Positions 341 to 64,000 of a stretch of 64,000 nt of DNA are shown here, in pieces. Made by a program: the position numbers and the translations under genes. The notes below the pieces were generated by a model. It saw only the letters and a list, made by a program, of their open reading frames with translations. It was not told where the DNA came from and made no database searches. The stretch spans positions 1,674,001 through 1,738,000 of the forward strand of contig OZ025258.1 in the NCBI GenBank assembly GCA_964019135.1, given 5' to 3'. The stretch comes from Arenicola marina (Eukaryota; Annelida; Polychaeta; Arenicolidae). Every line of letters begins with the position of its first letter. Position 1 is the first letter of the stretch.

Positions 341-463
341 GCGACGAGCGCTCTGGACGCGGAGAGTGAACACCTGGTGCAGCAGGCCATCGACCGCGCC
401 ATGGAGAACCGGACCGTCCTCGTCATCGCCCACAGATTGTCCACAGTCAGGAACGCCCACAAG
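341..463 (+). CDS. ABCB9: ABCB9-like exon: D-loop and H-loop of the ATPase domain
   Basis: The acceptor is tgtccgacag just before 341 and the donor is aag|gtacgtg after 463. It has 41 codons, phase 0 at both ends. SALD is at codons 3-6 and the catalytic-switch histidine is in VIAHRLS. The last 63 bases plus 12 intron bases form the unit of the array that follows, so any of the 15 identical donors (463, 538, and so on to 1513) could be used without changing frame. Confidence 0.85.
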
Positions 464-3230
464 GTACGTGTAGCCATGGAGAACCGGACCGTCCTCGTCA
501 TCGCCCACAGATTGTCCACAGTCAGGAACGCCCACAAGGTACGTGTAGCCATGGAGAACCGGACCGTCCTCGTCATCGCCCACAGATTGTCCACAGTCAG
601 GAACGCCCACAAGGTACGTGTAGCCATGGAGAACCGGACCGTCCTCGTCATCGCCCACAGATTGTCCACAGTCAGGAACGCCCACAAGGTACGTGTAGCC
701 ATGGAGAACCGGACCGTCCTCGTCATCGCCCACAGATTGTCCACAGTCAGGAACGCCCACAAGGTACGTGTAGCCATGGAGAACCGGACCGTCCTCGTCA
801 TCGCCCACAGATTGTCCACAGTCAGGAACGCCCACAAGGTACGTGTAGCCATGGAGACCCGGACCGTCCTCGTCATCGCCCACAGACTGTCCACAGTCAG
901 GAACGCCCACAAGGTACGTGTAGCCATGGAGAACCGGACCGTCCTCGTCATCGCCCACAGACTGTCCACAGTCAGGAACGCCCACAAGGTACGTGTAGCC
1001 ATAGAGACCCGGACCGTCCTCGTCATCGCCCACAGACTGTCCACAGTCAGGAACGCCCACAAGGTACGTGTTGCTATGGAGACCCGGACCGTCCTCGTCA
1101 TCGCCCACAGACTGTCCACAGTCAGGAGCGCTCACAAGGTACGTGTAGCCATGGAGAACCGGACGGTCCTCGTCATCGCCCACAGACTGTCCACAGTCAG
1201 GAACGCCCACAAGGTACGTGTTGCTATGGAGACCCGGACCGTCCTCGTCATCGCTCACAGACTGTCCACAGTCAGGAACGCCCACAAGGTACGAGTAGCC
1301 ATGGAGAACCGGACCGTCCTCGTCATCGCCCACAGACTGTCCACAGTCAGGAACGCCCACAAGGTACGTGTAGTCATGGAGACCCGGACCGTCCTCGTCA
1401 TCGCCCACAGACTGTCCACAGTCAGGAACGCCCACAAGGTACGTGTAGTCATGGAGACCCGGACCGTCCTCGTCATCGCCCACAGACTGTCCGCAGTCAG
1501 GAACGCCCATAAGGTACGTGTAGCTTACTGTTGTGACTGCCCTATATCTACTGTTGTAACTGTCCTATATCCACTGTTGTGACTGTCCTATATCCACTGT
1601 TGTGACTGTCCTATATCTACTGTTGTGACTGTCCTATATCCACTGTTGTGACTGTCCTATATCCACTGTTGTGACTGTCCTATATCCACTGTTGTGACTG
1701 TCCTATATATACTGTTGTGACTGTCCTATATCCACTGTTGTGACTGTCCTATATATACTGTTGTGACTGTCCTATATCCACTGTTGTGACTGTCCTATAT
1801 CCACTGTTGTGACTGTCCTATATCCACTGTTGTGACTGTCCTATATCCACTGTTGTGACTGTCCTATATCCACTGTTGTGACTGTCCTATATATACTGTT
1901 GTGACTGTCCTATATCCACTGTTGTGACTGTCCTATATATACTGTTGTGACTGTCCTATATCCACTGTTGTGACTGTCCTATATCTACTGTTGTGACTGT
2001 CCTATATCTACTGTTGTGACTGTCCTATATCCACTGTTGTGACTGTCCTATATCTATTGTTGTGACTATCCTATATCTCCTGTTGTGACTATCCTATATC
2101 CACTGTTGTGACTGACCTATATCCACTGTTGTGACTGTCCTATATCCACTGTTGTGACTGTCCTATATCCACTGTTGTGACTGTCCTATATCTCCTGTTG
2201 TGACTATCCTATATCCACTGTTGTGACTGACCTATATCCACTGTTGTGACTGTCCTATATCTACTGTTGTGACTGTCCTATATCCACCTGTTTGCCTGAC
2301 ATGCCCTGTCTCTGTCGTTGCCAGGTGATTGTGTTGGACAAGGGGGAGGTGGTGGAGCAGGGCACACACGAGGAGCTGCTGACTAAGGCCGGTGTCTACA
2401 AGCGGCTTGTGCTGCGTCAGCTGATGGCTGGGACCGCTGGGGAGGGGCCGGCCCCCCCGGGGGACGAGGGCGCGTGGGAGTCATTGGGGGAGGGGCACGA
2501 GGCGGGAAGTGGGGAGGCCGGAGGGGAGGGGCACAGAGTGGGAAGTGGGGAGGCCGGGGGGGAGGCCGTGGGGGAGGGGCACAAAGTGGGAAGTGGGGAG
2601 GCCGGTGGGGAGGGGTACGGGGCGGGAGGTGGTAGTAAGCGGGGGAGCTCTCAGGGTGGACAGAGGGGATCTGAGGGTAGACAAAGGGGTTCTGAGGGTG
2701 GACAGGGGGGCTCTGAGGGTGGACAGGGGGGCTCTGAGGGTGGACAGGGGGGCTCTGAGGTTGGACAGGGGGGCTCTGAGGGTGGACAGGGGGGCTCTGA
2801 GGTTGGACAGGGGGGCTCTGAGGTTGGACAGGGGGGCTCCGAGGGTGGACAGGGGGGCTCTGAGGGTGGACAGGGGGGCTCTGAGGGTGGACAGGGGGGC
2901 TCTGAGGGTGGACAGGGGGGCTCTGAGGGTGGACAGGGGGGCTCTGAGGGTGGACAGGGGGGCTCTGAGGGTGGACAGGGGGGCTCTGAGGTTGGACAGG
3001 GGGGCTCTGAGGGTGGACAGGGGGGCTCTGAGGTTGGACAGGGGGGCTCTGAGGTTGGACAGGGGGGCTCTGAGGTTGGACAGGGGGGCTCTGAGGGTGG
3101 ACAGGGGGGCTCTGAGGTTGGACAGGGGGGCTCTGAGGGTGGACAGGGGGGCTCTGAGGGTGGACAGGGGGGCTCTGAGGGTGGACAGGGGGGCTCTGAG
3201 GGTGGACAAAATGGCTCCATGATCAGTTGA
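341..3230 (+). CDS. ABCB9: ABCB9/TAPL-like half ABC transporter, C-terminal two exons (partial gene)
   Basis: These are the end of the nucleotide-binding domain and the C-terminal tail of a subfamily B half transporter. Coding exons are 341-463 and 2325-3230, joined in phase 0. The first starts within the ATSALD signature after Walker B (D-loop) and carries the H-loop histidine in [16 protein letters not shown]. The second continues [19 protein letters not shown] and [11 protein letters not shown], the usual end of the ABCB fold. The wording is closest to ABCB9 (TAP-like, a lysosomal peptide exporter acting as a homodimer); ABCB8 and ABCB10 fit less well. The membrane domain and Walker A lie upstream of the window. 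The intron is made entirely of two minisatellites, and the first of these copies the donor site 15 times in frame. The tail of about 270 residues is far longer than in vertebrate ABCB9. Confidence 0.85.
401..1525 (+). repeat. 75-bp minisatellite x15 spanning an exon end and its splice donor
   Basis: Fifteen copies of a 75-bp unit. Each holds 63 bp of ABCB9 exon, the gtacgtg donor and five more intron bases. 75 is 25 codons and the intron part has no stop, so the whole array reads as repeated [20 protein letters not shown] blocks. Copies 1-6 share 'agattgtcc'; copies 7-15 have 'agactgtcc' and other changes. The exon-proximal block is therefore more uniform. Confidence 0.95.
1526..2288 (+). repeat. 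23-bp minisatellite (about 33 copies) filling the rest of the ABCB9 intron
   Basis: The unit is near ctgttgtgactgtcctatat plus cca, with c/t and ta/cc variants. It starts directly after the 75-bp array and stops about 35 bp before the acceptor of the next exon. It contains no exon sequence. Confidence 0.95.
2325..3230 (+). CDS. ABCB9: ABCB9-like terminal exon with long Gly/Ser/Glu/Gln tail
   Basis: The acceptor is gtcgttgccag before 2325 and the stop is tga at 3228-3230. About 35 codons finish the nucleotide-binding domain ([19 protein letters not shown], then [11 protein letters not shown]). The remaining roughly 265 codons are low complexity: first [17 protein letters not shown] blocks, then about 25 copies of a seven-residue GGSEGGQ repeat. 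The tail has no known fold and is probably disordered and length-variable. A polyadenylation signal 44 bp after the stop supports this as the true end. Confidence 0.8.
   Translation: MIVLDKGEVVEQGTHEELLTKAGVYKRLVLRQLMAGTAGEGPAPPGDEGAWESLGEGHEAGSGEAGGEGHRVGSGEAGGEAVGEGHKVGSGEAGGEGYGAGGGSKRGSSQGGQRGSEGRQRGSEGGQGGSEGGQGGSEGGQGGSEVGQGGSEGGQGGSEVGQGGSEVGQGGSEGGQGGSEGGQGGSEGGQGGSEGGQGGSEGGQGGSEGGQGGSEGGQGGSEVGQGGSEGGQGGSEVGQGGSEVGQGGSEVGQGGSEGGQGGSEVGQGGSEGGQGGSEGGQGGSEGGQGGSEGGQNGSMIS
2490..2640 (+). repeat. Imperfect coding repeat in the ABCB9 tail (GEG.. GSGEAGG blocks)
   Basis: About four diverged copies of a segment of roughly 40 bp centred on gtgggaagtggggaggccgg. They encode Gly/Glu/Ser-rich peptide in frame with the transporter. 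Confidence 0.7.
2655..3212 (+). repeat. 21-bp coding minisatellite (about 25 copies), GGSEGGQ heptad
   Basis: The unit is ggctctgagggtggacaggg plus g. The main variant changes one Gly to Val (gag ggt to gag gtt). The period keeps the reading frame and no copy carries a stop in the coding frame. The other frames are open too, which produces false long ORFs on both strands. Confidence 0.95.
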
Positions 3231-3273
3231 GGACACCACACTTAGTTTTAAAATGTATTTATAGACAAATTAT

Positions 3274-9000: not shown

Positions 9001-12000
9001 CACCAGGTAATCATTACCTGATTTGGAGGACGCAGCCCGGTACCTATCATCTACAGCCCAGGACTGTAATTATTACCTGATTTTGAGGACACAGCCCGGT
9101 ACCTATCATCTACAGCCCAGAACTGTAATTATTACCTGATTTGGAGGACACAGCCCGGTACCTATCATCTACAGCCCAGGACTGTAATCATTACCTGATT
9201 TGGAGGACACAGCCCGGTACCTATCATCTACAGCCCAGAACTGTAATTATTACCTGATTTGGAGGACACAGCCCGGTACCTATCATCTACAGCCCAGGAC
9301 TGTAATTATTACCTGATTTGGAGAACACAGCCCGGTACCTATCATCTACAGCCCAGGACTGTAATTATTACCTGATTTGGAGGACACAGCCCGGTACCTA
9401 GCTACAGCCCAGGACTGTAATTATTACCTGATTTGGAGAACACAGCCCGGTACCTATCATCTACAGCCAAAGACTGTAATCATTACCTGATTTGGAGGAC
9501 GCAGCCCGGTACCTATCATCTACAGCCCAGAACTGTAATTATTACCTGATTTGGAGGACACAGCCCGGTACCTATCATCTACAGCCCAGGACTGTAATCA
9601 TTACCTGATTTGGAGGACACAGCCCGGTACCTATCATCTACAGCCCAGAACTGTAATTATTACCTGATTTGGAGGACACAGCCCGGTACCTATCATCTAC
9701 AGCCCAGGACTGTATTTATTACCTGATTTGGAGAACACAGCCCGGTACCTATCATCTACAGCCCAGAACTGTAATTATTACTTGATTTGGAGGACACAGC
9801 CCGGTACCTATCATCTACAGCCCAGGACTGTAATTATTACCTGATTTGGAGGACACAGCCCGGTACCTATCATCTACAGCCCAGGACTGTAATTATTACC
9901 TGATTTGGAGAACACAGACCGGTACCTATCATCTACAGCCCAGGACTGTAATCATTACCTGATTTGGAGGACACAGCCCGGTACCTATCATCTACAGCCC
10001 AGAACTGTAATTATTACCTGATTTGGAGGACACAGCCCAGAACTCCGCATTTATTTCACGGGCAATTGCGACGGCCTCTTCCTCTACATCTCTGTACGCA
10101 GATTGTGTCTGTAGAAAAACACATTAAGGACCGCATATTACATATCCATGAATATGGACAGGTGCAAGGCAATTGCATAATTTTATAGTTGGGAATATTC
10201 AGGCCTGTGATTGACCCTCACAAAAAAGAATAAAGTAGTGATACTTTAAAACAGGGGAAAGCTAAAATCTTAATTTTTTTTTTAGGATTAAATGGCAACC
10301 AATATTAATCTATGTCACATCAAATAATACTTCCTCCGCCAAATTTGCATGTATTTGATGTATTACATGCAAATACCAAGATATTTAGTGATTGCATATA
10401 TGCGCCGAAAGGCACAATTGTGACAATTCGTCATTTTTGGCCTAATTTATAGCCTATTTTGGTTACAAAAGAGCTTATAGAACAAAAGTTAGTTCAGTAA
10501 CATATTGTTTTTTTGTTATTTTTGTATTCCCCATGACGCTAGGCTTCAGCAGGCAGTTTTTTGGGGAAGTCTGTCGACCAGTTTTTATAGGAGATTTCAA
10601 GACAGTGGGAAAAAAATACATTTATAGGATTTTCCAATTGGCCGCCATGTTAAAGCCAATTTAACAAAAATGCCACAAACTTTTTTTTTTAGTGAAGTGA
10701 CATATATTTGTTATGATATTTTCAGGTAGATCCATACATGATACTTATCTAGAGAAAAAAGAAAACAAATCTGTCGACGAATTTTTTTTAACCCCCCACC
10801 CGCTCTCGACCTTAAAAACGAATTTATAGTTTTTTAAATAGCACGACATATTGTAGTTTAAGATCTATTCACACATTTTATGAGGGCAGATAGCCTGAAT
10901 TCAGGTGTCACAGGTCATTGGGCATCAATCAGACACTATAGTGGGGTGATTCTGATGAACCAGAGTTCATTCAAACATTGAGTGCCTTGCAAATGATCTG
11001 GTCAAATCTTAAAAAATAAAATATAGAAAAAGTAGGGAGAAAATAAAAGTAGTGAATTTTTTTTAGTAAACGGTGGGAAAGTAGGAGGGACAATCACAGG
11101 CCTGAGATTTATAGTGTAAGCATTTATTTCCATGTAAAAGCCATGCATTTCGTAACGTTAACCATAATGAAAGAGCTAGCTGGCCTCACCATTAGATCTT
11201 TCTTTGTGCCGATGAGGAAGACGAGCGGGTCGGCGGCGTTTTGACAAGCGTCCTCCTTCCAAGTCCTCACGCTGGCCAGACTCCCAATGTCACTGAGGTC
11301 AAAGGCCACAATGACAACTGTCAACAAACAAACAGAGGCTCGTTCATTGCTTCCTCAATGTCACTGGGAACAAACAAACAGAGGCTCGTTCATTGCTTCC
11401 TCAATGTCACTGGGAACAAACAAACAGAGGCTCGTTCATTGCTTCCTCAATGTCACTGGGAACAAACAAACAGAGGCTCGTTCATTGCTTCCTCAATGTC
11501 ACTGTCAACAAACAAACAGAGGCTCGTTCATTGCTTCCTCAATGTCACTGGGAACAAACAAACAGAGGCTCGTTCATTGCTTCCTCAATGTCACTGGGAA
11601 CAAACAAACAGAGGCTCGTTCATTGCTTCCTCAATGTCACTGGGAACAAACAAACAGAGGCTCGTTCATTGCTTCCTCAATGTCACTGGGAACAAACAAA
11701 CAGAGGCTCGTTCATTGCTTCCTCAATGTCACTGGGAACAAACAAACAGAGGCTCGTTCATTGCTTCCTCAATGTCACTGGGAACAAACAAACAGAGGCT
11801 CGTTCATTGCTTCCTCAATGTCACTGGGAACAAACAAACAGAGGCTCGTTCATTGCTTCCTCAATGTCACTGGGAACAAACAAACAGAGGCTCGTTCATT
11901 GCTTCCTCAATGTCACTGGGAACAAACAAACAGAGGCTCGTTCATTGCTTCCTCAATGTCACTGGGAACAAACAAACAGAGGCTCGTTCATTGCTTCCTC

Positions 12001-51600: not shown

Positions 51601-54600
51601 ACCTTCTGCAACGATACAAACACCCGTCATGCACTCCAACACCTTCTGCAACGATACAAACACCCGTTATACACTTCAACACCTTCTACACCGATACAAA
51701 CACCCGTCACACACTCCAACACATTGTAATTGAGGGTCTGGTTTAGTGGTACATTGTTACTGAGGTCTGGTCTAGTGGTAAATTGTTACTCTGAGGTCTG
51801 GTCCAGTCGTACATTGTTACTCTGAGGTCTGGTTTAGTCCTACATTGTTGTTCTGAGGTCTGGTTTAGTCATACATTGTTACTCTGGGGTCTGGTCTTGT
51901 CATACATTGTTACTCTTGAGGTCTGCATGGTTAGTCATACATTGTTACTCTGAGGTCTGGTCTAGTCCTACATTGTTACTCTGAGGTCTGGTTTAATCAT
52001 ACACTGTTACCGAGGTCTGGTCTAGTCATACATTGTTACTGTGGTCTGGTCTAGTCATACATTGTTACTGTTGTCTGGTCTAGTCATACAGGTACTCTGA
52101 GGCATGGCTGCACGTGCTCACCGCGTCCTTGGCCCGCGTCTCGCGCCCGCTGTGGTTGATGATGGCCTCCAGGGTGGCCACCCACTTCTGCTTGTCACCG
52201 AACCCCAACGCCATCAAATACAGGCTCCTGAAGCAAGGCAAGGTGGCTTCAATCAAACCAACGCCATCATATACAGGCTCCTGAAGCAAGGCAAGGTGGC
52301 TTCAATCAAACCAACGCCATCATATACAGGCTCCTGAAGCAAGGCAAGGTGGCTTCAATCAAACCAACGCCATCATATACAGGCTCCTGAAGCAAGGCAA
52401 GGTGGCTTCAATCAAACCAACGCCATCATATACAGGCTCCTGAAGCAAGGCAAGGTGACTTCAATCAAACCCACGGAAAAGTACTTTGTACAAGGAATAG
52501 AAATGATGACACTCTCGCCCACGTGACCACATTTTTCCGGACCATAGTAACGGGTGACCTCAATATAGCTCAATATAGGCACTTCCTAATGATTTATTGA
52601 CTTACATATTTAAATAGATATTATGGCGAAAACAATTGATTTAAGTTAGGCGGCCCTGTTTCAAACTGTTAGATTACATCAACACACATTGTGCACAGTG
52701 TGAGGTGGACTGACCTGCCCGGCCAGCACATTGTGCACAGTGTGAGGTGGACTGACCTGCCCGGCCAGCACGTGGTGCACAGTGTGAGGTGGACTGACCT
52801 GCCCGGCCAGCACATTGTGCACAGTGTGAGGTGGACTGACCTGCCGGGCCAGCACATTGTGCACAGTGTGAGGTTGACTGACCTGCCCGGCCAGCACATT
52901 GTGCACAGTGTGAGGTGGACTGACCTGCCCGGCCAGCACGTGGTGCACAGTGTGAGGTGGACTGACCTGCCCGGCCAGCACATTGTGCACAGTGTGAGGT
53001 GGACTGACCTGCCGGGCCAGCACATTGTGCACAGTGTGAGGTTGACTGACCTGCCCGGCCAGCACATTGTGCACGGTGTGAGGTGGACTGACCTGCCCGG
53101 CCAGCACATTGTGCACGGTGTGAGGTGGACTGACCTGCCCGGCCAGCACATTGTGCACAGTGTGAGGTGGACTGACCTGCCCGGCCAGCACATTGTGCAC
53201 AGTGTGAGGTGGACTGACCTGCCCGGCCAGCACGTGGTGCACAGTGTGAGGTGGACTGACCTGCCCGGCCAGCACGTGGTGTCCGGCTCGAAGTCGAGGC
53301 GCATGATGTAGGGTAGGTCGGTGGAGGCGGCGTTGGTGAGCTCGGCGGCCGTGACGGCGCTGTGCAGGGTCACCTGGCCGTTGTGGGGACACAGGGCGAA
53401 GTCCTCCTGGACACTGTCCTCGGTGTCGGACTGGTACACCACCAGCCGGTTGTCATGGAGCTTCACCCAGCGCCGCTCCCACACCTGCTTCCCGGCCCTG
53501 CCAACCACAAGGGAAAGGAATCATTGTTTTAGGCCGCTTGGGTTGACCCAGGACGCTCCCAGGGCGATGGACGGAAGACACATGCTCCAGAGTAGGTGCC
53601 CGAGTCCGGATTCGAACCCAGGACCGGTTGACCTCGTTACTTGTTAAGGTGCAACCCCTTTGAGCTTAATTACGGCCATCGTTTAAACTACTCTAACGTC
53701 TAAACAACCGAAAACTTTGCCACCCCACAATATTAAACATTGACTTATGTGAAACGCTTTACCCTGGGCATCTAGGGCTGGTCTTACCTGGGCACCTTGA
53801 GCCAGTCTTACCTGGGCAGCTTGAGCCAGTCTTACCTGGGCAGCTTGAGCCAGTCTTACCTTGGCACCTTGAGCCAGTCTTACCTGGGCACATTGAGCCA
53901 GTCTTACCTGGGCAGCTTGAGCCAGTCTTACCTGGGCAGCTTGAGCCAGTCTTACCTGGGCACCTTGAGCCAGTCTTACCTGGGCACCTTGAGCCAGTCT
54001 TACCTGGGCACCTTGAGCCAGTCTTACCCGGGCACCTTGAGCCAGTCTTACCTGGGCAGCTTGAGCCAGTCTTACCTGGGCACATTGAGCCAGTCTTACC
54101 TGGGCACATTGAGCCAGTCTTACCTGGGCACATTGAGCCAGTCTTACCTGGGCACATTGAGCCAGTCTTACCTGGGCACATTGAGCCAGTCTTACCTGGG
54201 CACATTGAGCCAGTCTTACCTGGGCAGCTTGAGCCAGTCTTACCTGGGCAGCTTGAGCCAGTCTTACCTGGGCAGCTTGAGCCAGTCTTACCTTGGCACC
54301 TTGAGCCAGTCTTACCTGGGCACATTGAGCCAGTCTTACCTGGGCAGCTTGAGCCAGTCTTACCTGGGCAGCTTGAGCCAGTCTTACCTGGGCACCTTGA
54401 GCCAGTCTTACCTGGGCACCTTGAGCCAGTCTTACCTGGGCACCTTGAGCCAGTCTTACCCGGGCACCTTGAGCCAGTCTTACCTGGGCAGCTTGAGCCA
54501 GTCTTACCTGGGCACCTTGAGCCAGTCTTACCTGGGCACATTGAGCCATTCTTACCTGGGCAGCTTGAGCCAGTCTTACCTGGGCACATTGAGCCAGTCT

Positions 54601-57600
54601 TACCTGGGCAGCTTGAGCCAGTCTTACCTGGGCAGCTTGAGCCAGTCTTACCTGGGCACATTGAGCCAGTCTTACCTGGGCAGCTTGAGCCAGTCTTACC
54701 TGAGCAGCTTGAGCCAATCTTACCTGGGCACCTTGAGCCAGTCTTACCTGGGCAGCTTAAGCCAGTCTTACCTGGGCAGCTTGAGCCAGTCTTACCTGGG
54801 CAGTTTGAGCCAGTCTTACCTGGGCACATTGAGCCAGTCTTACCTGGGCAGCTTGAGCCAGTCTTACCTGGGCAGCTTGAGCCAGTCTTACCTGGGCAGC
54901 TTGAGCCAATCTTACCTGGGCACCTTGAGCCAGTCTTACCTGGGCAGCTTGAGCCAGTCTTACCTGGGCAGCTTGAGCCAGTCTTACCTGGGCAGCTTGA
55001 GCCAGTCTTACCTGGGCAGCTTGAGCCAGTCTTACCTGGGCACCTTGAGCCAGTCTTACCTGGGCAGCTTGAGCCAGTCTTACCTGGGCAGCTTGAGCCA
55101 GTCTTACCTGGGCAGCTTGAGCCAGTCTTACCTGGGCAGCTTGAGCCAGTCTTACCTGGGCAGCTTGAGCCAATCTTACCTGGGCACCTTGAGCCAGTCT
55201 TACCTGGGCAGCTTGAGCCAGTCTTACCTGGGCAGCTTGAGCCAGTCTTACCTGGGCAGCTTGAGCCAATCTTACCTGGGCACCTTGAGCCAGTCTTACC
55301 TGGGCAGCTTGAGCCAGTCTTACCTGGGCAGCTTGAGCCAGTCTTACCTGGGCAGCTTGAGCCAGTCTTACCTGGGCAGCTTGAGCCAGTCTTACCTGGG
55401 CAGCTTGAGCCAGTCTTACCTGGGCAGCTTGAGCCTGTCTTACCTGGGCAGCTTGAGCCAGTCTTACCTGGGCAGCTTGAGCCAGTCTTACCTGGGCAGC
55501 TTGAGCCAGTCTTACCTAAGCAGCTTGAGCCAGTCTTACCTGGGCAGCTTGAGCCAGTCTTACCTGGGCAGCTTGAGCCTGTCTTACCTGGGCAGCTTGA
55601 GCCTGTCTTACCTGGGCAGCTTGAGCCAGTCTTACCTGGGCAGCTTGAGCCAGCCGGCCATCTGCAGCCGAAGGTTGGCGACGGAGGGCTTGGCGGGGGC
55701 GGATGCCGAGGTGGGGGCTGAGGTGGGGGCCGAGGCGGCACGCGCCTTGCTCATCATGTCGGTGAAGTGGCGGGCGTACTCGGTGGGCAGGCCGCACGTG
55801 GCCGGCAGGTTGACCACACAGCCAGGGTGGCACACCGTGTTACACTCTGTAACAGAGAGGGTGGAACAATGGGTGGCTGGTGGCTGGGGGCGGGGTGACT
55901 GGGGGCGGGTGGCGGGTAGCGGTTGGCTGGCGGCTGGGGGCTGGAGGCGGGGTGACCGGGGGCGGGAGGCGAGTAGCGGTTGGCTGGCGGCTGGGGGCTG
56001 GAGGCGAGTGCCGAGTGGCTGGCGGCTGGGGGCGAGTGGCTGGCGGCTGGGGGCGAGTGGCGAGTGGCTGGGGGCTGGAGGCGAGTGGCTGGCGGCTGGG
56101 GGCTGGAGGCGAGTGGCTGGTGGCTGGGGGCTGGAGGCGAGTGGCGAGTGGCTGGGGGTTGGAGGCGGGTGGCGAGTGGCTGGCGGCTGGAGGCGAGTGG
56201 CTGGCGGCTGGAGGCTGGAGGCGAGTGGCTGGCGGCTGGAGGCGAGTGGCTGGGGGCTGGAGGCGAGTGGCTGGCGGCTGGGGGCTGGAGGCGAGTGGCT
56301 GGTGGCTGGAGGCGAGTGGCTGGGGGTTGGAGGCGAGTGGCTGGCGGCTGGGGGCTGGAGGCGAGTGGCTGGTGGCTGGAGGCGAGTGGCGAGTGGCTGG
56401 AGGCGAGTGGCGAGTGGCTGGCGGCTGGAGGCGAGTGGCTGGCGGCTGGAGGCGAGTGGCGAGTGGCTGGGGGCTGGAGGCGAGTGGCTGGCGGCTGGGG
56501 GCTATAGGCGAGTGGCGAGTGGCTGGCGGCTGGGGGCTGGAGGCGAGTGGCTGGGGGCTGGCGGCTGGAGGCGAGAGGCTTGGGGCTGGCGGCTGGTGGC
56601 TGGGGGCGGGTGGCTGGGGGCGGGTGGCAGGTGGCTGGAGGCGGGTGGCGGGTGGCTGGGGGCGGGTGGCGGGCGGCTGGGGGCTGGCGGCTGGTGGCTG
56701 GTGGCTGGGGGTGGGTGGCGGGCGGCTGGGGGCTGGTGGCTGGGGGCGGGTGGCTGGTGACTGGTGGCAGGGGGCGGGTGGCTGGAGGCTGGTGGCGGGT
56801 GGCTGGAGGCGGGTGGCTGGAGGCGGGTGGCTGGAGACAGGTGGCTGGGAGCGAGTGGCGGGTGGCTGGAGGCGGGTGGCTGGAGGCGGGGGACCTACCT
56901 TGGCACTTGGCGGCCTGCTTGACGAACTGGATGGAGCCCAGACAGACGGCGCACGTGGTGGCGCGGCTGTTGAGGCCCGTCACGAAGCGGTGCGGTATGT
57001 TGTGGTGCATGCGCTCCTTGGGTCGCCGGGGGGTGGTGTGGGTGGCCCGGGGGGTGGGCGCCACCGACAGGTTGTCCATGGAGCGGTGGTAGAGCGGGGC
57101 CCCGGGCGAGGGCTGAGAGGAGGGGGACAGCACCAGGGCTGACAGCCCGGCGCTGGGGCCCACCGTCCTCAGGGTGGCGACCTGGGAGGGGATGTCCCCA
57201 GAGCTCTGGCACTTGAGGCGGATCGCTGCAACGACACACAATACAGTCAAACACCATTACTGACAACCACACGGCAGCAAAGACAGGCACTAAACCAGAC
57301 CTGTGGGGTACTCACTCCCTGTCCGGGCCACACCTGTGGGGTACTCACTCCCTGTCCGGGCCACACCTGTAGGGTACTTACCCACTCTCTGTCCGGGCCA
57401 CACCTGTGGGGTACTCACTCCCTGTCCGGGCCACACTTGTGGGGTACTCACTCCCTGTCCGGGCCACACCTGTGGGGTACTCACTCCCTGTCCGGGCCAC
57501 ACCTGTGGGGTACTTACCCACTCTCTGTCCGGGCCACACCTGTGGGGTACTTACCCACTCTCTGTCCGGGCCACACCTGTGGGGTACTTACCCACTCTCT

Positions 57601-60600
57601 GTCCGGGCCACACCTGTGGGGTACTTACACACTCTCTGTCCGGGCCACACCTGTGGGGTACTTACACACTCTCTGTCCGGGCCACACCTGTGGGGTACTT
57701 ACTCACTCTCTGTCCGGGCCACACCTGTGGAGTACTCACTCTCTGTCCGGGCCACACCTGTGGGGTACTTACCCACTCTCTGTCCGGGCCACACCTGTGG
57801 GGTACTTACCCACTCTCTGTCCGGGCCACACCTGTGGGGGACTCACTCCCTGTCCGGCCCAGACCTGTGGGTACTCACTTTCTGTCCGGGCCAGACCTGT
57901 GGGGTATTTACCCACCCTCTGTCCGGCCCAGACCTGTGGGGTACTCACTCTCTGTCCGGGCCACACCTGTGGGGTACTCACTCTCTGTCCGGGCCACACC
58001 TGTGGGGTACTCACTCCCTGTCCGGGCCACACCTGTGGGGTACTTACCCACTCTCTGTCCGGGCCACACCTGTGGGGTACTTACCCACTCTGTCCGGGCC
58101 ACACCTGTGGGGTACTTACACACTCTCTGTCCGGGCCACACCTGTGGGGTACTTACTCACTCTCTGTCCGGGCCACACCTGTGGAGTACTCACTCTCTGT
58201 CCGGGCCACACCTGTGGGGTACTTACCCACTCTCTGTCCGGGCCACACCTGTGGGGTACTTACCCACTCTCTGTCCGGGCCACACCTGTGGGGGACTCAC
58301 TCCCTGTCCGGCCCAGACCTGTGGGTACTCACTTTCTGTCCGGGCCAGACCTGTGGGGTATTTACCCACCCTCTGTCCGGCCCAGACCTGTGGGGTACTC
58401 ACTCTCTGTCCGGGCCACACCTGTGGGGTACTCACTCTCTGTCCGGGCCACACCTGTGGGGTACTCACTCCCTGTCCGGGCCACACCTGTGGGGTACTCA
58501 CTCCCTGTCCGGGCCACACCTGTGGGGTACTTACTCACCCTCTGTCCGGGCCACACCTGTGGGGTACTCACTTTCTGTCCGGGCCACACCTGTGGGGTAC
58601 TTACCCACTCTCTGTCCGGGCCACACCTGTGGGGTACTCACTCTCTGTCTGGGCCACACCTGTGGAGTACTCACTCTCTGTCCGGGCCAGACCTGTGGGG
58701 TACTTACCCACTCTCTGTCTGGGCCACACCTGTGGGGTACTCACTCCCTGTCCGGGCCACACCTGTGGGGTACTCACTCTCTGTCCGGGCCACACCTGTG
58801 GGGTACTTACCCACTCTCTGTCCGGGCCACACCTGTGGGGTACTCACTCTCTGTCCGGGCCACACCTGTGGGGTACTTACCCACTCTCTGTCCAGGCCAC
58901 ACCTGTGGGGTACTTACCCACTCTCTGTCCGGGCCACACCTGTGGGGTACTTACCCACTCTCTGTCCGGGCCACACCTGAGGGGTACTTACCCACTCTCT
59001 GTCCGGGCCACACCTGTGGGGTACTTACCCACTCTCTGTCCGGGCCACACCTGTGGGGTACTTACCCACTCTCTGTCCGGGCCACACCTGTGGGGTACTC
59101 ACTCTCTGTCCGGGCCACACCTGTGGAGTACTCACTCTCTGTCCGGGCCACACCTGTGGGGTACTTACCCACTCTCTGTCCGGGCCACACCTGTGGGGTA
59201 CTTACCCACTCTCTGTCCGGGCCACACCTGTGGGGGACTCACTCCCTGTCCGGCCACACCTGTGGGGTACTTACCCACTCTCTGTCCGGGCCACACCTGT
59301 GGGGTACTCACTCTCTGTCCGGGCCACACCTGTGGAGTACTCACTCTCTGTCCGGGCCACACCTGTGGGGTACTTACCCACTCTCTGTCCGGGCCACACC
59401 TGTGGGGTACTTACCCACTCTCTGTCCGGGCCACACCTGTGGGGGACTCACTCCCTGTCCGGCCCAGACCTGTGGGTACTCACTTTCTGTCCGGGCCAGA
59501 CCTGTGGGGTATTTACCCACCCTCTGTCCGGCCCAGACCTGTGGGGTACTCACTATCTGTCCGGGCCACACCTGTGGGGTACTCACTCCCTGTCCGGGCC
59601 AGACCTGTGGGGTACTCACTCTCTGTCCGGGCCACACCTGAGGGGTACTTACCCACTCTCTGTCCGGGCCACACCTGTGGGGTACTCACTCTCTGTCCGG
59701 GCCACACCTGTGGGGTACTCACTCTCTGTCCGGGCCACACCTGTGGGGTACTCACTCCCTGTCCGGGCCACACCTGTGGGGTACTCACTCCCTGTCCGGG
59801 CCACACCTGTGGGGTACTTACTCACCCTCTGTCCGGGCCACACCTGTGGGGTACTCACTTTCTGTCCGGGCCACACCTGTGGGGTACTTACCCACTCTCT
59901 GTCCGGGCCACACCTGTGGGGTACTCACTCTCTGTCTGGGCCACACCTGTGGAGTACTCACTCTCTGTCCGGGCCACACCTGTGGGGTACTTACCCACTC
60001 TCTGTCTGGGCCACACCTGTGGGGTACTCACTCCCTGTCCGGGCCACACCTGTGGGGTACTCACTCCCTGTCCGGGCCACACCTGTGGGGTACTTACCCA
60101 CTCTCTGTCCGGGCCACACCTGTGGGGTACTCACTCTCTGTCCGGGCCACACCTGTGGAGTACTCACTCTCTGTCCGGGCCACACCTGTGGGGTACTTAC
60201 CCACTCTCTGTCCGGGCCACACCTGTGGGGTACTTACCCACTCTCTGTCCGGGCCACACCTGTGGGGTACTCACTTTCTGTCCGGGCCAGACCTGTGGGG
60301 TACTCACTCCCTGTCCGGGCCACACCTGTGGGGTACTTACCCACTCTCTGTCCGGGCCACACCTGTGGGGTACCCACTCTCTGTCCGGGCCACACCTGTG
60401 GGGTACTTACCCACTCTCTGTCCGGGCCACACCTGTGGGGTACTCACTCTCTGTCCGGGCCACACCTGTGGAGTACTCACTCTCTGTCCGGGCCACACCT
60501 GTGGGGTACTTACCCCCTCTCTGTCCGGGCCACACCTGTGGGGTACTCACTCCCTGTCCGGGCCACACCTGTGGGGTACTCACTCCCTGTCCGGGCCAGA

Positions 60601-62643
60601 CCTGTGGGGTACTCACTCCCTGTCCGGGCCAGACCTGTGGGGTACTCACTCCCTGTCCGGGCCACACCTGTGGAGTACTCACTCTCTGTCCGGGCCACAC
60701 CTGTGGGGTACTTACCCCCTCTCTGTCCGGGCCACACCTGTGGGATACTCACTCCCTGTCCGGGCCACACCTGTGGGGTACTCACTCCCTGTCCGGGCCA
60801 GACCTGTGGGGTACTCACTCCCTGTCCGGGCCAGACCTGTGGGGTACTCACTCCCTGTCCGGCCCAGACCTGTGGGGTACTCACTTTCTGTCCGGGCCTG
60901 GTAGAGTTCGTCCTTGAGCGTCGTGATCTGCTGACGGAGGGCAGCGTTTTTCTCCCGCTCGTGCTCCAGCGAATGTTGCACCTCACGGTACTGCAGCCCG
61001 ACAGAGGGCGCCGCCGTCGTATCCTTCCGGCTGCCGAACAGCTGTAGCGACCAAAATGCTTAATCATGACAGGGGTGGCACAAGTTATGACAGGACAGGG
61101 GTGGCACAAGTCATGACAGGACAGGGGTGGCACAAGTCATGACAGGACAGGGGTGGCACAATTCATGACAGGAAACGGGTGGCACAAGCCATGACAGGAC
61201 AGGGGTGGCACAAGTCATGACAGGACAGGGGTGGCACAAGTCATGACAGGACAGGGGTGACACAAGTCACGACAGGACAGGGGTGGCACAAGCCATGACA
61301 GGACAGGGGTGGCACAAGTCATAACAGGGCAGGGGTGACACAAGTCCTGAGATGACAGGGGTGGCACAAGTCCTGAGATGACAGGGGTGACACAATCCAT
61401 GACAGGACAGGGGTGACCCAAGTCATGACAGGACAGGGGTGGCACAAGTCATGACAGGATAGGACAGGGGTCACACAAGTCCTGAGAGGACAGGGGTGAC
61501 ACAAGTCATGACATAACAGGAGTGGCACAACGAACAGATTGCGGCAGTACTAAAACAGGGACAATACTACATTTGTCATCCTGACCGATATTTATGCATC
61601 CGTATTACTTATATAATAAAGTCGGTATGAATTGTCCAGCTATAATGTGCTGACACAGTGTGATGTAGCTGACCCCCACTGGTCGCTGGGGTGGACGGTG
61701 TGTCTGGGTACTTACCCCCCACTGGTCGCTGGGGTGGACAGTGTGTCCGGGTACTTACCCCCCACTGGTCGCTGGGGTGGACAGTGTGTCCGGGTACTTA
61801 CCCCCCACTGGTCGCTGGGGTGGACGGTGTGTCCGGGTACTTACCCCCCACTGGTCGCTGGGGTGGACGGTGTGTCCGGGTACTAACGCCTCACTGGTCG
61901 CTGGGGTGGACGGTGTGTCCGGGTACTTACCCCCCACTGGTCGCTGGGGTGGACGGTGTGTCCGGGTACTTACCCCCCACTGGTCGCTGGGGTGGACGGT
62001 GTGTCCGGGTACTTACGCCCCACTGGTCGCTGGGGTGGACGGTGTGTCCGGGTACTTACGCCCCACTGGTCGCTGGGGTGGACGGTGTGTCCGGGTACTT
62101 ACCCCCCACTGGTCGCTGGGGTGGACGGTGTGTCCGGGTACTTACGCCCCACTGGTCGCTGGGGTGGACGGTGTGTCCGGGTACTTCCCCCCCACTGGTC
62201 GCTGGGGTGGACGGTGTGTCCGGGTACTTACGCCCCACTGGTCGCTGGGGTGGACGGTGTGTCCGGGTACTTACGCCCCACTGGTCGCTGGGGTGGACGG
62301 TGTGTCCGGGTACTTACGCCCCACTGGTCGCTGGGGTGGACGGTGTGTCCGGGTACTTACCCCCCACTGGTCGCTGGGGTGGACGGTGTGTCCGGGTACT
62401 TACGCCCCACTGGTCGCTGGGGTGGACGGTGTGTCCGGGTACTTCCCCCCCACTGGTCGCTGGGGTGGACGGTGTGTCCGGGTACTTACGCCCCACTGGT
62501 CGCTGGGGTGGACGGTGTGTCCGGGTACTTACGCCTTTCTTTTTCTTGGGCGGGTTCTCCACCTTGGCCTGGAGGTAGTCGATGAGCTTCGTCTGCTGCC
62601 CGATGGTGCTTACAAACTTGTACTTCTCATGGCCAAAGGTAGC
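39037..62643 (-). CDS. CIT: Citron (citron Rho-interacting kinase), C-terminal half, 15 exons
   Basis: Citron works at the midbody in cytokinesis and binds active Rho/Rac. The coding exons (minus strand, 62643 down to 39037) total 2838 nt, exactly 945 codons and a stop, with every phase matching. Domain order is as in CIT: end of the coiled coil (GQQTKLIDYLQAKVENPPKK), a C1 zinc finger (HHNIPHRF, CAVCLGSI, then ECNTVCHPGC and LPATCGLP), a PH domain (GWLKLPR to KQKWVATLEAI), a CNH domain (LEVNCVVPLSDK to VEVICFRGN), and a Ser/Pro/Ala-rich tail. The kinase domain and most of the coiled coil lie beyond 64000. The C-terminus is SFYT, unlike the class I PDZ-ligand end of vertebrate citron. Most introns carry arrays that copy an adjacent splice site. 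Confidence 0.95.
39779..39994 (-). CDS. CIT: Citron exon: end of CNH domain
   Basis: Acceptor gtttggttgtag before 39994, donor cgaag|gtaggc. It encodes IQNPRYLGPAITDSAVYMAT then HTDQGVEVICFRGN, matching the final CNH blades of citron, followed by an acidic/Ser linker. Phase 2 at both ends. Confidence 0.93.
40035..42530 (+). repeat. 24-bp minisatellite, about 100 copies
   Basis: The unit is catgtcaaacacgcccacgc plus ctaa, with a second common type acatccacgtctca. It ends about 35 bp from the citron acceptor at 39995 and lacks a splice site. The period of 24 leaves a 694-codon false ORF. Blocks of variant types recur at 540 bp (catatcaaac near 40390 and 40930, 40510 and 41050). Copies decay between 42060 and 42530. 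Confidence 0.95.
42677..42758 (-). CDS. CIT: Citron exon: CNH domain strand
   Basis: Acceptor tgtctgttgtag, donor caccc|gtgagt. It encodes YEAPYLYVVYFNMLQVIEML then PKHREH, matching the EPYLF..FNSLEVIEI segment of vertebrate citron. Phase 1 in, phase 2 out. Confidence 0.93.
42843..42962 (+). repeat. 29-bp minisatellite, 4 copies
   Basis: The unit is aagtgtacgcgctgtcgttt plus aataaatga. It is intronic, between two citron exons, and short and uniform. Confidence 0.9.
43055..43335 (+). repeat. G-rich minisatellite (about 46-48 bp unit, 5-6 copies) beside a citron donor
   Basis: The unit is ggtgtgaggggcggggggtg then caggggggtggtgggcgcgg gtgca. It starts within about 10 bp of the donor at 43341 but contains no donor copy. 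The runs of G could form G-quadruplexes on the template strand of citron. Confidence 0.88.
43342..43422 (-). CDS. CIT: Citron exon: CNH domain (EFGVFV segment)
   Basis: Acceptor tcctcttgcag, donor ttcg|gtgaga. It encodes (E)FGVFVNARGCRSRDVNMKW then SGLPLSF, matching the EFGVFVDSYGRRSR..LKWSRLPLAF region of citron. Phase 1 at both ends. Confidence 0.95.
43430..43934 (+). repeat. 42-bp minisatellite, 12 copies, against a citron acceptor
   Basis: The unit is ggaacactcgttataacagg, gacatctacaccccggtaca tt. It begins about 10 bp upstream (in transcript sense) of the acceptor at 43423, and the acceptor itself is not in the unit. It abuts the next array directly at about 43932. Confidence 0.93.
43930..45000 (-). 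repeat. 73-bp minisatellite x about 14-15 carrying a citron exon end and donor
   Basis: In the citron direction each unit contains the last 50 or so bases of the exon at 44938-45069 (LKVSPPAESQEFLLCFH) and the donor cacg|gtaagcgc. Some copies have lost or changed bases (near 44515, 44548). The unit is not a multiple of three. Confidence 0.94.
44938..45069 (-). CDS. CIT: Citron exon: CNH domain (EFLDRADTS segment)
   Basis: Acceptor cacccctcccag, donor ccacg|gtaagc. It encodes FLDRADTSLAFAVFGAAHYD then SFPIAVLKVSPPAESQEFLLC and FH, corresponding to EFLDKNDHSLAPAVF..LLCFH in citron. The donor nearest the 5' side of the array was chosen because it keeps phase with the next exon. Confidence 0.93.
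45070..45821 (-). other. Citron intron without tandem array
   Basis: One of the few introns in the window without a minisatellite. It is unique A/T-rich sequence with no recognisable gene or element. Confidence 0.6.
45822..45930 (-). CDS. CIT: Citron exon: CNH domain (CSCMHFANDFIIVGT segment)
   Basis: Acceptor ctgtgcccccag, donor tcag|gtaaca. It encodes EVLTSQACSCMHFANDFIIV then GTDRFYKLSLRDYQLS, the counterpart of [24 protein letters not shown]. Phase 0 in, phase 1 out. Confidence 0.95.
45945..47275 (+). repeat. 34-bp minisatellite, about 39 copies
   Basis: The unit is atggcatcaaacaggtgtac plus gtcatgaacgatca. It lies just upstream of the acceptor at 45931 and shares ctgtttgatgccattg with the last 30 bases of that intron, but excludes the AG. 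Copies near 47040-47270 (accaatgcc) are diverged. Confidence 0.95.
47330..47660 (-). repeat. Partial exon duplication: 2.5 copies of a citron exon end plus donor
   Basis: The 3' part of the exon at 47589-47845 (VATAENVILYKYNEGLSRFC) with its gtaaga donor and a pyrimidine-rich intron segment recurs at about 47459-47530 and, truncated before the donor, at about 47337-47400. Spacing is about 120-130 bp. The copies differ slightly (VKK for IKK). Confidence 0.9.
47589..47845 (-). CDS. CIT: Citron exon: CNH domain core
   Basis: Acceptor gctgtctctgcag, donor aagaag|gtaaga. It encodes KTERDMMVVERSNLNTVITH, LPLQPELVEGAATCTTFAVQ and ENVILYKYNEGLSRFCIKK, matching the VVILRYNENLSKYCIRKE part of citron. 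Phase 1 in, phase 0 out. Confidence 0.94.
47925..48675 (-). repeat. 43-bp minisatellite x about 17 carrying a citron exon end and donor
   Basis: In the citron direction each unit contains gtcattatcacca|gtaagtc, the end and donor of the exon at 48673, followed by agcagccagcatgctcagcc tgt. Most copies keep a perfect gtaagt. Confidence 0.94.
48673..48820 (-). CDS. CIT: Citron exon: CNH domain (LLVGSDEGLFAIEY segment)
   Basis: Acceptor tcttgtcgttgctag, donor atcacca|gtaagt. It encodes MLLVGSDEGLFAIEYGDPAD then VENVQWMELVRDLDLLVIIT, matching VVLVGTEEGLYALN and IYIIKDLEKLLMIAG. Both edges of this exon are amplified into arrays. Confidence 0.94.
48780..49640 (-). repeat. 60-bp minisatellite x14 carrying a citron acceptor and exon start
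   Basis: In the citron direction each unit reads cttgtcgttgctag| followed by atgctgttggtgggcagtga, that is the acceptor plus the first 24 bases of the exon at 48820, then cggctt and the leader gttaccttaagggttcttg. Fourteen near-identical copies. A 378-codon minus-strand ORF and a 332-codon plus-strand ORF across it are artefacts. Confidence 0.95.
49790..49870 (-). CDS. CIT: Citron exon: PH-CNH linker and first CNH strand
   Basis: Acceptor tatcgttgcag, donor gacaag|gtacgt. Its 27 codons are KVLGNHVLRLTNDRRLEVNC VVPLSDK, the match of [26 protein letters not shown]. Phase 0 at both ends. Confidence 0.95.
49871..51725 (-). repeat. 39/40-bp minisatellite x about 47 carrying a citron acceptor
   Basis: In the citron direction each unit is gggtgtttgtatcgttgcag followed by aaggtgttgagtgtgtgac, the acceptor and a diverged start of the exon at 49870 (aaggtgctggg). 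Length types differ by one base (actcaac/actccaac). Some copies have ttgtag in place of ttgcag, which is still an AG. Confidence 0.94.
51730..52100 (+). repeat. About 32-bp diverged minisatellite, about 11 copies
   Basis: The unit is near gaggtctggtctagtcatac plus attgttactct. It lies in a citron intron about 25 bp from the donor at 52121; there are no splice-site copies. Confidence 0.85.
52122..52227 (-). CDS. CIT: Citron exon: end of PH domain
   Basis: Acceptor ccttgcttcag, donor gacgcg|gtgagc. It encodes SLYLMALGFGDKQKWVATLE then AIINHSGRETRAKDA, with the conserved PH C-terminal helix tryptophan (KQKWVATLEA). Phase 2 in, phase 0 out. Confidence 0.95.
52205..52460 (-). repeat. 53-bp minisatellite x about 4-5 carrying a citron acceptor and exon start
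   Basis: In the citron direction each unit has accttgccttgcttcag| followed by gagcctgtatatgatggcgt tgg, the acceptor and first exon bases (gagcctgtatttgatggcg) of the exon at 52227. Four near-perfect copies plus the real one. Confidence 0.92.
52461..52684 (-). other. Unique part of the citron intron between PH exons
   Basis: A/T-rich unique sequence between the 53-bp acceptor array and the 42-bp donor array. No feature recognised. Confidence 0.5.
52690..53285 (-). repeat. 42-bp minisatellite x14, in frame, carrying a citron PH exon end and donor
   Basis: In the citron direction each unit is (ac)gtgctggccgggcag|gtcagtccacctcacactgt gcac. 42 is 14 codons and the exon's own frame stays open through all copies (CWPGRSVHLTLCTM repeated) to 52669. 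Some copies carry ccggcag or gtcaac at the donor. Confidence 0.95.
53261..53497 (-). CDS. CIT: Citron exon: PH domain core
   Basis: Acceptor gtggttggcag, donor gggcag|gtcagt. It encodes AGKQVWERRWVKLHDNRLVV, then QEDFALCPHNGQVTLHSAVT and PYIMRLDFEPDTTCWPG, matching W.RKYIVLEGSKVLIY, the VSIHGAVGASEL segment and HTTCWPGR in citron. The 14 in-frame donors mean its 3' end could extend by multiples of 14 residues. Confidence 0.95.
53525..53690 (-). repeat. tRNA-derived SINE
   Basis: On the minus strand an A box (taagctcaaaggg, 53656-53668) and a perfect B box (ggttcgaatcc, 53608-53618) are spaced as in a tRNA. They are followed by a tail with ctggagcatgtgtcttccgt. It lies in the citron intron between the PH exons. 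An intact tRNA gene is unlikely because the anticodon arm is poorly paired. Confidence 0.6.
53775..55660 (-). repeat. 24-bp minisatellite x about 78 made of a citron exon end plus donor
   Basis: In the citron direction the unit is ggctcaagctgcccag|gtaa gact: the last 16 bases of the exon at 55636 plus an eight-base donor. Variants are ggtgcccag, tgtgcccag and one atgcccag. Rare variants recur 432 bp (18 units) apart (53859 and 54291; 54027 and 54459). In the exon's frame read-through stops at once (agg taa). Confidence 0.96.
55636..55846 (-). CDS. CIT: Citron exon: second half of C1 finger and start of PH domain
   Basis: Acceptor tctctgttacag, donor cccag|gtaaga. It encodes CNTVCHPGCVVNLPATCGLP then TEYARHFTDMMSKARAA, an Ala/Pro/Ser linker and LQMAGWLKLP. 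It holds the last zinc ligands of the C1 domain (C..C.H..C pattern) and the first PH strand. Confidence 0.95.
55866..56895 (+). repeat. Degenerate G-rich minisatellite (ggctggcggctggaggcgagt type)
   Basis: Mixed units of about 16-30 bp made of the words ctggaggcgagtggc, ctggcggctggggg and gagtggcgagt. It begins about 15 bp from the citron donor at 56898 but contains no donor. All six frames are open for long stretches. Strong G skew on the plus strand, so the citron RNA is C-rich here. Confidence 0.9.
56899..57225 (-). CDS. CIT: Citron exon: linker and first half of C1 finger
   Basis: Acceptor gtcgttgcag, donor gccaag|gtaggt. It encodes IRLKCQSSGDIPSQVATLRT, a Ser/Pro linker, PRRPKERMHHNIPHRFVTGL and NSRATTCAVCLGSIQFVKQA AKCQ. 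RLKERMHHNIPHRF is a signature of citron C1 domains. Phase 1 at both ends. Confidence 0.95.
57297..60884 (-). repeat. 33/37-bp minisatellite x about 102 carrying a citron donor
   Basis: In the citron direction units are ggcccggacagggagtgagt accccacaggtgt (33 bp) or with gagtgggtaagtacccc (37 bp). They hold the end of the exon at 60885 (gcccggacagaaa|gtgagt) plus donor. The ggcccagacc variants near 57860, 58305 and 59461 mark duplicated blocks. All six frames show long false ORFs. Confidence 0.94.
60885..61041 (-). CDS. CIT: Citron exon: coiled-coil segment after the KKKKG motif
   Basis: Acceptor ggtcgctacag, donor cagaaa|gtgagt. It encodes LFGSRKDTTAAPSVGLQYRE then VQHSLEHEREKNAALRQQIT TLKDELYQARTE, the match of [30 protein letters not shown] in citron. 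Heptad-like coiled coil. Phase 0 in, phase 1 out. Confidence 0.93.
61065..61535 (+). repeat. 26-bp minisatellite, about 18 copies
   Basis: The unit is ggtggcacaagtcatgacag gacagg, with variants ctgagatg and acaca. It lies upstream (transcript sense) of the citron exon at 61041; it has no splice-site copy. Confidence 0.92.
61675..62540 (-). repeat. 43-bp minisatellite x about 20 carrying a citron donor
   Basis: In the citron direction the unit is gggcgtaagtacccggacac accgtccaccccagcgacca gtg. The first copy is the true donor of the exon at 62533 (aaggc|gtaagt). Units carry ggcgtaagtac or gggggtaagtac. Two gggggaagtac copies at 62184 and 62442, 258 bp or six units apart, have lost the GT. Confidence 0.94.
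62533..62643 (-). CDS. CIT: Citron exon: end of main coiled coil
   Basis: Acceptor ggcttcttccttcag, donor aaaggc|gtaagt. Its 37 codons are ATFGHEKYKFVSTIGQQTKL IDYLQAKVENPPKKKKG, nearly the same as [24 protein letters not shown]..KKKKG in citron. Phase 0 at both ends. Confidence 0.95.
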
Positions 62644-62849
62644 CTGAAGGAAGAAGCCAGATACGGTGAGGGGCTGGGTGTGATGACCCACCACGCTGTG
62701 TGTCCCGATGGCACTTACCACCCGCTATGGGTGACCAGGTCCCGCCCCATACACCACACCCCCCATGTGTCACCTTCCTCTGTCAGATATAACGCTCGTA
62801 TAGCTAGGCGTAAAGAGGACACAGCGACAGTGGTTGGTTTAATACGGCA

Positions 62850-64000
62850 AGATGGTCTCGAGGTCAGTCTGATATCTGGTAGACCTCCAGCTGGTTTCCA
62901 AGGTCAGTCTCATACCTGATGAGTTTCCATCTGGTTTTTAAGGTCAGTCGTATACCGGGTAAATTTCCAGCTGGTTTTCAAGGTCAGTCTCGTACCTGAT
63001 GAGCCTCCATCTGGTTCTCAAGGTCAGTCTTATACCAGGTAACCTTCCAGCTGGTTCTCGAGGTCAGTCCAATACCTGATAAGCTTCCAGCTGGTTCTCG
63101 AGGTCAGTCCTATACCTGATAAGCTTCCAGCTGGTTCTCGAGGTCAGTCCTATACCTGATAAGCTTCCAGCTGGTTCTCGAGGTCAGTCCTATACCTGAC
63201 AAGCTTCCAGCTGGTTTTCAAGGTCAGTCCTATACCTGATAAGCTTCCAGCTGGTTCTCGAGGTCAGTCCTATACCCGATAAGCTTCTAGCTGGTTCTCG
63301 AGGTCAGTCCTATACCCGATAAGCTTCTAGCTGGTTCTCGAGGTCAGTCCTATACCTGATAAGCTTCCAGCTGGTTCTCGAGGTCAGTCCTATACCTGAT
63401 GAGCTTCCAGCTGGTTCTCGAGGTCAGTCCTATACCTGATAAGCTTGCAGCTGGTTCTCGAGGTCAGTTCTATACCTGATAAGCTTCCAGCTGGTTCTCG
63501 AGGTCAGTCCTATACCTGATAAGCTTCCAGCTAGTTCTCGAGGTCAGTCCTATACCTGATAAGCTTCCAGCTGGTTCTCGAGGTCAGTCATATACCTGAT
63601 AAGCTTCCAGCTGGTTCTCGAGGTCAGTCCTATACCTGATGACCTTCCAGCTAGTTCTCAAGGTCAGTCCTATACCTGATAAGCTTCCAGCTGGTTCTCG
63701 AGGTCAGTCCTATACCTGATAAGCTTCCAGCTGGTTCTCGAGGTCAGTCCTATACCTGATAAGCTTCCAGCTGGTTCTCGAGGTCAGTCCTATACCTGAT
63801 AAGCTTCCAGCTGGTTCTCGAGGTCAGTCCTATACCTGATAAGCTTCCAGCTGGTTCTCGAGGTCAGTCCTATACCTGATAAGCTTCCAGCTGGTTCTCG
63901 AGGTCAGTCCTATACCTGATAAGTTTCCAGCTGGTTCTCGAGGTCAGTCCTATACCTGATAAGCTTGCAGCTGGTTCTTAAGGTCAGTCCTATACCTGAT
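62850..64000 (-). repeat. 40-bp minisatellite x about 28 (continues past window) carrying an exon end and donor
   Basis: In the citron direction the unit is gacctcgagaaccagctgga agcttatcag|gtataggact. Translated up to the gt it reads DLENQLEAYQ, matching the residues that precede the SHEK segment in citron. It therefore copies the 3' end of the preceding citron exon, which lies beyond 64000. Copies near 62860-63060 are clearly more diverged than those near the window edge. Confidence 0.9.

Follow-up and report, generated by a model that had tools for sequence, protein, structure and literature searches.

Tandem arrays spanning exon-intron borders in the annelid Arenicola marina

Introduction

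We describe here a stretch of 64,000 nt from one contig of the genome of the polychaete annelid Arenicola marina (GenBank assembly GCA_964019135.1, contig OZ025258.1, positions 1,674,001 to 1,738,000 of the forward strand; hereafter the window), together with 200 kb of its flank, in which tandem arrays fill most of the intron sequence and many run across an exon border, so that the repeated unit holds an exon edge and its splice site. Exon-edge minisatellites are already known from amphioxus, where they have been named "mirages"; here they occur in another phylum, the annelids, and on a larger scale. We give a probability of roughly 0.64 to the reading that minisatellites grow throughout this genome and are filtered by selection, with mirages at exon edges as the result. 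The assembly comprises 867 Mb in 762 contigs.

Arrays at exon borders

Tandem Repeats Finder (TRF) resolves 38 non-redundant arrays in the window, covering 80.3% of its bases, and 77.5% of the combined 264 kb of window and flank lies in tandem arrays. The modelled genes of the 264 kb contain 45 introns, 31 of which carry arrays, 53 in all; 21 of the 53 span a junction with 3 bp or more to either side of it, 15 of them at donors and 6 at acceptors, and three introns are straddled at both ends. The straddling arrays have a median unit of 43 bp and a mean match of 94.6%, as compared with 38 bp and 91.3% for the other intronic arrays, and a few units exceed 100 bp. The cases at exon borders in the window, including two that come close without crossing, are the following:

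398..1524, + strand: donor straddle, 15 copies of 75 bp; last 66 bp of ABCB9-like exon 341-463 and donor GTACGT
9007..10038, - strand: donor straddle, 17.5 copies of 59 bp; last 21 bp of RAB34 exon 10018-10108 and donor GTAATA
11323..24932, - strand: not a straddle (TRF), 296 copies of 46 bp; stops 5 bp before reaching the acceptor of RAB34 exon 11190-11317
26614..29426, + strand: donor straddle, 37 copies of 76 bp; last 12 bp of RPL23A exon 26449-26625 and donor GTGGGT
43930..45006, - strand: donor straddle, 14.8 copies of 73 bp; last 69 bp (TRF) of citron exon 44938-45069 and donor GTAAGC
47404..47662, - strand: donor straddle, 1.9 copies of 140 bp, better described as a duplication than as a long array; last 74 bp of citron exon 47589-47845 and donor
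47930..48685, - strand: donor straddle, 17.6 copies of 43 bp; last 13 bp of citron exon 48673-48820 and donor GTAAGT
48799..49640, - strand: acceptor straddle, 14 copies of 60 bp; acceptor and first 22 bp of citron exon 48673-48820
49861..51722, - strand: acceptor straddle, 47 copies of 40 bp; acceptor and first 10 bp of citron exon 49790-49870
52205..52475, - strand: acceptor straddle, 5.1 copies of 53 bp; acceptor and first 23 bp of citron exon 52122-52227
52685..53275, - strand: donor straddle, 14 copies of 42 bp; last 15 bp of citron exon 53261-53497 and donor GTCAGT
53763..55653, - strand: donor straddle, 79 copies of 24 bp; last 18 bp of citron exon 55636-55846 and donor GTAAGA
57295..60898, - strand: donor straddle, 104 copies of 33 bp (TRF); last 14 bp of citron exon 60885-61041 and donor GTGAGT
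61673..62532, - strand: flush, 20 copies of 43 bp; starts right at the GT donor that follows citron exon 62533-62643 (E1), with 0 exonic bp
62856..64000, continuing to window-equivalent 64274, - strand: donor straddle, 40-bp unit; last 39 bp of an off-window citron exon and its donor (64236)

These junctions had been singled out in a first-pass annotation of the window, which named 15 splice-site arrays, and 13 of them stand (10 donors and 3 acceptors). At ten of the eleven listed donors the array takes in 12-74 bp of exon, the exception being citron 62533, where by TRF it is flush and takes in none; among the four listed acceptors, citron 48820, 49870 and 52227 are straddled, and at RAB34 11317 the array stops 5 bp before the exon. 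The off-window exon with a donor array was located in the flank at window-equivalent 64236, with 39 bp of exon in the array. The unit range of 24-76 bp given there has to be widened, since the unit at citron 47589 measures 140 bp and the straddling units in the window thus span 24-140 bp. Nor do the arrays start at exon borders, as had been stated: throughout the 264 kb they begin inside the exon, by 10-74 bp at donors and 5-26 bp at acceptors.

The effect on intron length is large. Taken together, the 45 introns measure 125.6 kb, and they shrink to 14.1 kb (median 252 bp) when every array is cut to one unit; arrays account for 90.7% of intron bases versus 15.4% of exon bases. The most extreme intron, 50.7 kb long and located upstream at window-equivalent -67074 to -16271, consists of 169 copies of an 81-bp donor-edge unit directly followed by 611 copies of a 61-bp acceptor-edge unit, the latter being the largest array (37 kb), and it collapses to about 141 bp. 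In the array at 398-1524 of the ABCB9-like gene the first six copies are identical, and it is in this array only that a polarity of growth from the exon edge is clear.

Gene models

The gene models were built from open reading frames and database matches. The citron model has 15 exons in one open frame and is backed by citron matches and by CNH, C1 and PH domains; the other modelled genes are RAB34, RPL23A, and an ABCB-type transporter that we call ABCB9-like. That name is provisional, as solved ABCB9 matches the transporter, yet other ABCB proteins score higher, and the search does not settle the name; nor does it settle that of the putative RPL23A. For RAB34, the named proteins of highest identity among the 120 listed of 1328 matches are annelid (Paralvinella, Ridgeia and Owenia, 70%), and molluscs follow. 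For COX1, the best among the 120 matches listed comes from the polychaete Pilargis wolfi (92%); taken by themselves, these matches would place the worm among the polychaetes, probably in Phyllodocida. A run of 200 N at 26091-26290, between RAB34 and RPL23A, is possibly an assembly gap and may hide the first exons of both.

With its upstream flank, the ABCB9-like gene comprises 14 exons in a single open frame and has nine arrays over its junctions; in the part of the alignment shown, the transporter is colinear with ABCB proteins and carries no array-sized insertions at the array-bearing junctions. Its last exon also holds a coding array (2642..3208, + strand, 27 copies of 21 bp, wholly within the exon), which is translated as 27 seven-residue repeats, mostly GGSEGGQ or GGSEVGQ.

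On the kinase side of citron, upstream in the gene, ten further exons were placed at window-equivalent 101513-110508. Their borders are less certain, because these exons are open only singly and their concatenation has stops in every frame; they add nine introns and nine arrays, with zero straddles. Citron is thus modelled on either side of an interval that runs from about 65 kb to about 101 kb.

Arrays beyond the modelled genes

Arrays are not confined to genes, as is evident from an intergenic one of 200 copies of 40 bp between RPL23A and citron (30606..38512, no strand assigned), and 68% of the sequence outside the modelled genes of the 264 kb lies in arrays. Their share averaged 37% in 18 arbitrary 2.5-kb samples from 15 contigs (45 kb in total), exceeding 10% in 10 of the 18 and 50% in 6, and a share of 37% seems very high for an animal genome. 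The units are local: only 7 pairs among 99 arrays are similar, and all of these pairs lie within about 3.2 kb, the most distant being 134453-136537 and 139727-141570 (window-equivalent), which have a 53-bp unit in common and lie about 3 kb apart. For the 264 kb, units that are dispersed or mobile are accordingly rejected.

Exon-edge arrays also occur elsewhere in the genome. We surveyed the best 20 of 77 myosin-head matches, chosen by homology, with straddles judged by eye from TRF output and with some exon edges lying beyond the stretch. TRF arrays are present in 9 of the 20 stretches, with donor straddles in two (L055 and L062); no acceptor straddle was seen in these 20, in which not every exon edge falls inside the stretch. 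The two donor straddles indicate that such arrays are present elsewhere, apparently less densely than around the window. In a further stretch, L050, the array begins a few bases from the donor, which is itself unrepeated.

Two side observations concern the myosin matches. At 523-758 (sense) of L062, a unit of about 37 bp combines a C-rich tract, an AG, a dozen nucleotides of exon and a GT donor, so that its copies resemble complete micro-exons. Several myosin-head exon matches of about 40-70 residues, moreover, sit in open frames of 1000-1760 aa.

Selection and the placement of arrays

Four arrays lie inside exons, and their periods of 84, 21, 21 and 12 are all divisible by 3 (the last two arrays score 62 and 55), while 9 of the 21 straddling arrays have such a period. 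The exonic parts of the copies vary at 160, 177 and 152 cells at codon positions 1, 2 and 3, respectively; this near-equality gives no sign that the copies are translated, and translated copies are rejected on that basis. The proteins predicted from the exon-edge copies are open, colinear and intact. Among the processes put forward in the first-pass annotation, it is selection tolerating only those arrays that retain a usable site that fits these observations best.

The mechanism that we propose is one of massive local minisatellite growth, in which tandem duplications would be born from local sequence wherever selection allows and would expand by slippage or unequal exchange. Ancestral introns were probably short (about 250 bp, judging from the collapsed arrays), so that units of 20-80 bp would often have fallen across exon-intron borders, with the added copies of a border-spanning unit sitting on the intron side. 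Exon definition would favour the exon-attached copy at internal exons; if splicing does take that copy, by exon definition for example, the rest would be removed and be near-neutral, and an array could therefore grow to hundreds of copies. Frame-shifting duplications within exons would be purged by selection, and duplications at acceptors seem to be less tolerated than those at donors.

How often arrays would cross junctions by chance depends on the null that is chosen. Shifting the arrays around the 264 kb would cover 69.5 of the 90 junctions, as against the 21 observed, because arrays avoid exons. A more suitable expectation comes from a collapsed-intron null, in which each array is cut to one unit and the unit is placed at any position within the compact intron or over one of its edges; the base setting requires at least 3 bp on each side, an array score of 100 and 1.8 copies, with one unit kept. 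Against this null the placement is largely that of chance, with 21 straddles versus 16.9 expected (P=0.12) and 6 acceptors versus 8.45 (P=0.88); for the window alone there are 12 straddles versus 9.5 (P=0.19). By gene, the all-junction P is 0.048 for the ABCB9-like gene, 0.098 for citron, 1.0 for upstream citron, and 0.60 for RAB34 with RPL23A. The null is sensitive to its settings, and the expected straddles range accordingly from somewhat over half of those observed to more than all of them, the last when no unit is kept (P=0.98, no excess).

Several results weigh against our reading. Donors are straddled more often than expected (15 of the 53 arrays versus 8.45, P=0.013; in the window 9 versus 4.75, P=0.033). 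Four of the five variants of the null give an overall excess: P=0.016 when at least 8 bp of exon is required, P=0.003 when at least 10 bp is required (with donors at 15 versus 5.8, P=0.0002), P=0.033 when only arrays scoring 200 with 3 copies are admitted, and P=0.003 when two units are kept. A mirror test, in which introns are flipped end to end with no collapsing, finds 12 donor-only versus 3 acceptor-only introns (P=0.035). In test constructs, moreover, a 5' splice site that has been duplicated is often used at its intron-proximal copy, a preference that would count against the model.

The donor excess is the chief argument for the strongest rival, also among the first-pass candidates, in which a process tied to splice sites, chiefly 5' ones, seeds the duplications, for example where breaks or switches of template happen at RNA-DNA structures that form near donors during transcription. 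The excess becomes stronger as more exon is required, the mirror test points the same way, and both straddles in the 20 myosin stretches are at donors. Such seeding is, however, unneeded for most of the pattern, given the base null, and other features speak against it: acceptors are straddled as often as expected or less so, arrays start away from the site, 10-74 bp into the exons, arrays are common outside the modelled genes, and the straddling units show no strong enrichment in G on the sense strand (a strong G skew was rejected, the mean GC skew being 0.07). Acceptor-side intolerance could, moreover, produce the donor excess: with the acceptor straddlers set aside its P is 0.019, and when the last 20 or 40 nt of introns are also closed to seeds it weakens to 0.065 or 0.26. 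We consider splice-site seeding unlikely, at somewhat less than one chance in four. Slightly less probable still is the compound proposition that donors are a preferred birthplace of duplications, by way of a process at 5' sites that is linked to transcription or to the spliceosome, and that as many as about 170 near-identical donors downstream of the real one are reliably passed over in splicing.

Use of the repeated sites and integrity of the assembly

A further possibility is that the repeated sites are themselves used, as alternative donors or acceptors, in recursive splicing or in repeat-bearing isoforms, and that this function maintains the arrays. The GT or AG of the unit consensus is kept in 1448 of 1493 copies (97%) in 21 arrays, a set comprising 20 straddling arrays and the flush array of citron E1 (citron E9, which has too few copies, was omitted, and four tiles below 80% identity were dropped). 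A first test on 11 window arrays also pointed to conservation, with 0 of 351 copies broken versus 17 expected (P=0.005); it had omitted citron E1 (2 broken among 19 tested copies) and E9, and the signal was lost when the upstream ABCB9 arrays, the off-window citron array and E1 were added. In the full set 45 of 1493 splice dinucleotides are broken versus 70.9 expected (P=0.31), and 21 of 792 versus 44.4 for donors alone (P=0.18), so that selection on individual copies is not shown and the active role of repeated sites envisaged in the first-pass annotation is left unsupported. The even variation across codon positions likewise speaks against such use, and recursive splice sites were rejected, as AG|GT is not significantly enriched at straddled donors (9 of 15 versus 11 of 30 other donors; Fisher P=0.20). 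We regard use of the copies as quite improbable.

Least probable of all is that the arrays are largely assembly artefacts, for although a draft genome contained one wrongly assembled amphioxus mirage (according to the consulted portion of PMC3087553) and arrays here reach 611 copies and 37 kb, the copies in most arrays differ at scattered positions and are not exact clones, exon edges are in frame across the 14 ABCB9-like exons, and arrays exceed 10% of the sequence in more than half of the samples from 15 contigs. The arrays are real.

Relation to known systems

The closest precedent is provided by amphioxus, in which, according to the portions consulted of two papers (PMC3087553, PMC3902484), mirages occur in Adh3, the globins BflGb6 and BflGb9, troponin C and PGBD5 as minisatellite-like duplications of the exon-intron boundary, 5' and 3' alike, many copies carrying AG/GT signals, and RT-PCR suggests that splicing is left undisturbed. 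This published precedent weakens the premise, from which the first-pass annotation had argued, that ordinary minisatellites have no reason to start at exon borders. The likeness is close in that the worm units also span boundaries (21 of 53 intronic arrays), at 5' and 3' sites, and their copies keep AG/GT. The differences are that the accounts just cited give 3 and 6 copies in two BflGb6 haplotypes, as compared with up to 611 in the worm; that the worm is an annelid and not a cephalochordate, with 21 donor-heavy cases in 264 kb and a 50.7-kb intron of two arrays; and that splicing, length instability and somatic change have been studied in amphioxus, whereas the worm arrays are known from one assembly.

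Other systems are more distant. The Rogers model of intron gain by tandem duplication of AGGT, as far as the consulted part of PMC3087553 and the bibliographic entry of PMC4974935 go, has in common with the worm an internal duplication across splice-like sites, whereas the worm arrays enlarge introns. The intronic minisatellite CeRep25B of C. elegans, which the consulted part of PMC4039745 links to alternative splicing, resembles them in having 24-bp intronic repeats near splicing decisions; it is, however, a single family common to several genes, whereas the worm units are local and differ between arrays. Repeats in a metallothionein intron of an earthworm are arrays of minisatellite size in an annelid intron, although units spanning splice sites are not described in the consulted part of PMC12783039. 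Like ordinary minisatellites, the worm arrays consist of highly alike units of about 10-100 bp arranged head to tail. No report of such arrays in annelids, Phyllodocida or minisatellite-rich genomes, or in work on duplicated 5' sites, was found by title or abstract in the literature searched, namely the open-licence part of PMC, outside which most subscription papers lie.

Implications

The window and its flank indicate the scale that exon-edge minisatellites can reach, with 45 introns whose 125.6 kb collapse to about 14 kb and one intron of 50.7 kb made almost entirely of edge copies. They also carry a warning for annotation and assembly pipelines, which meet hundreds of exon-like copies beside real exons. 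For the biology of splicing, introns of this kind offer a natural experiment in site choice, in which the spliceosome is faced with many sites that are nearly identical.

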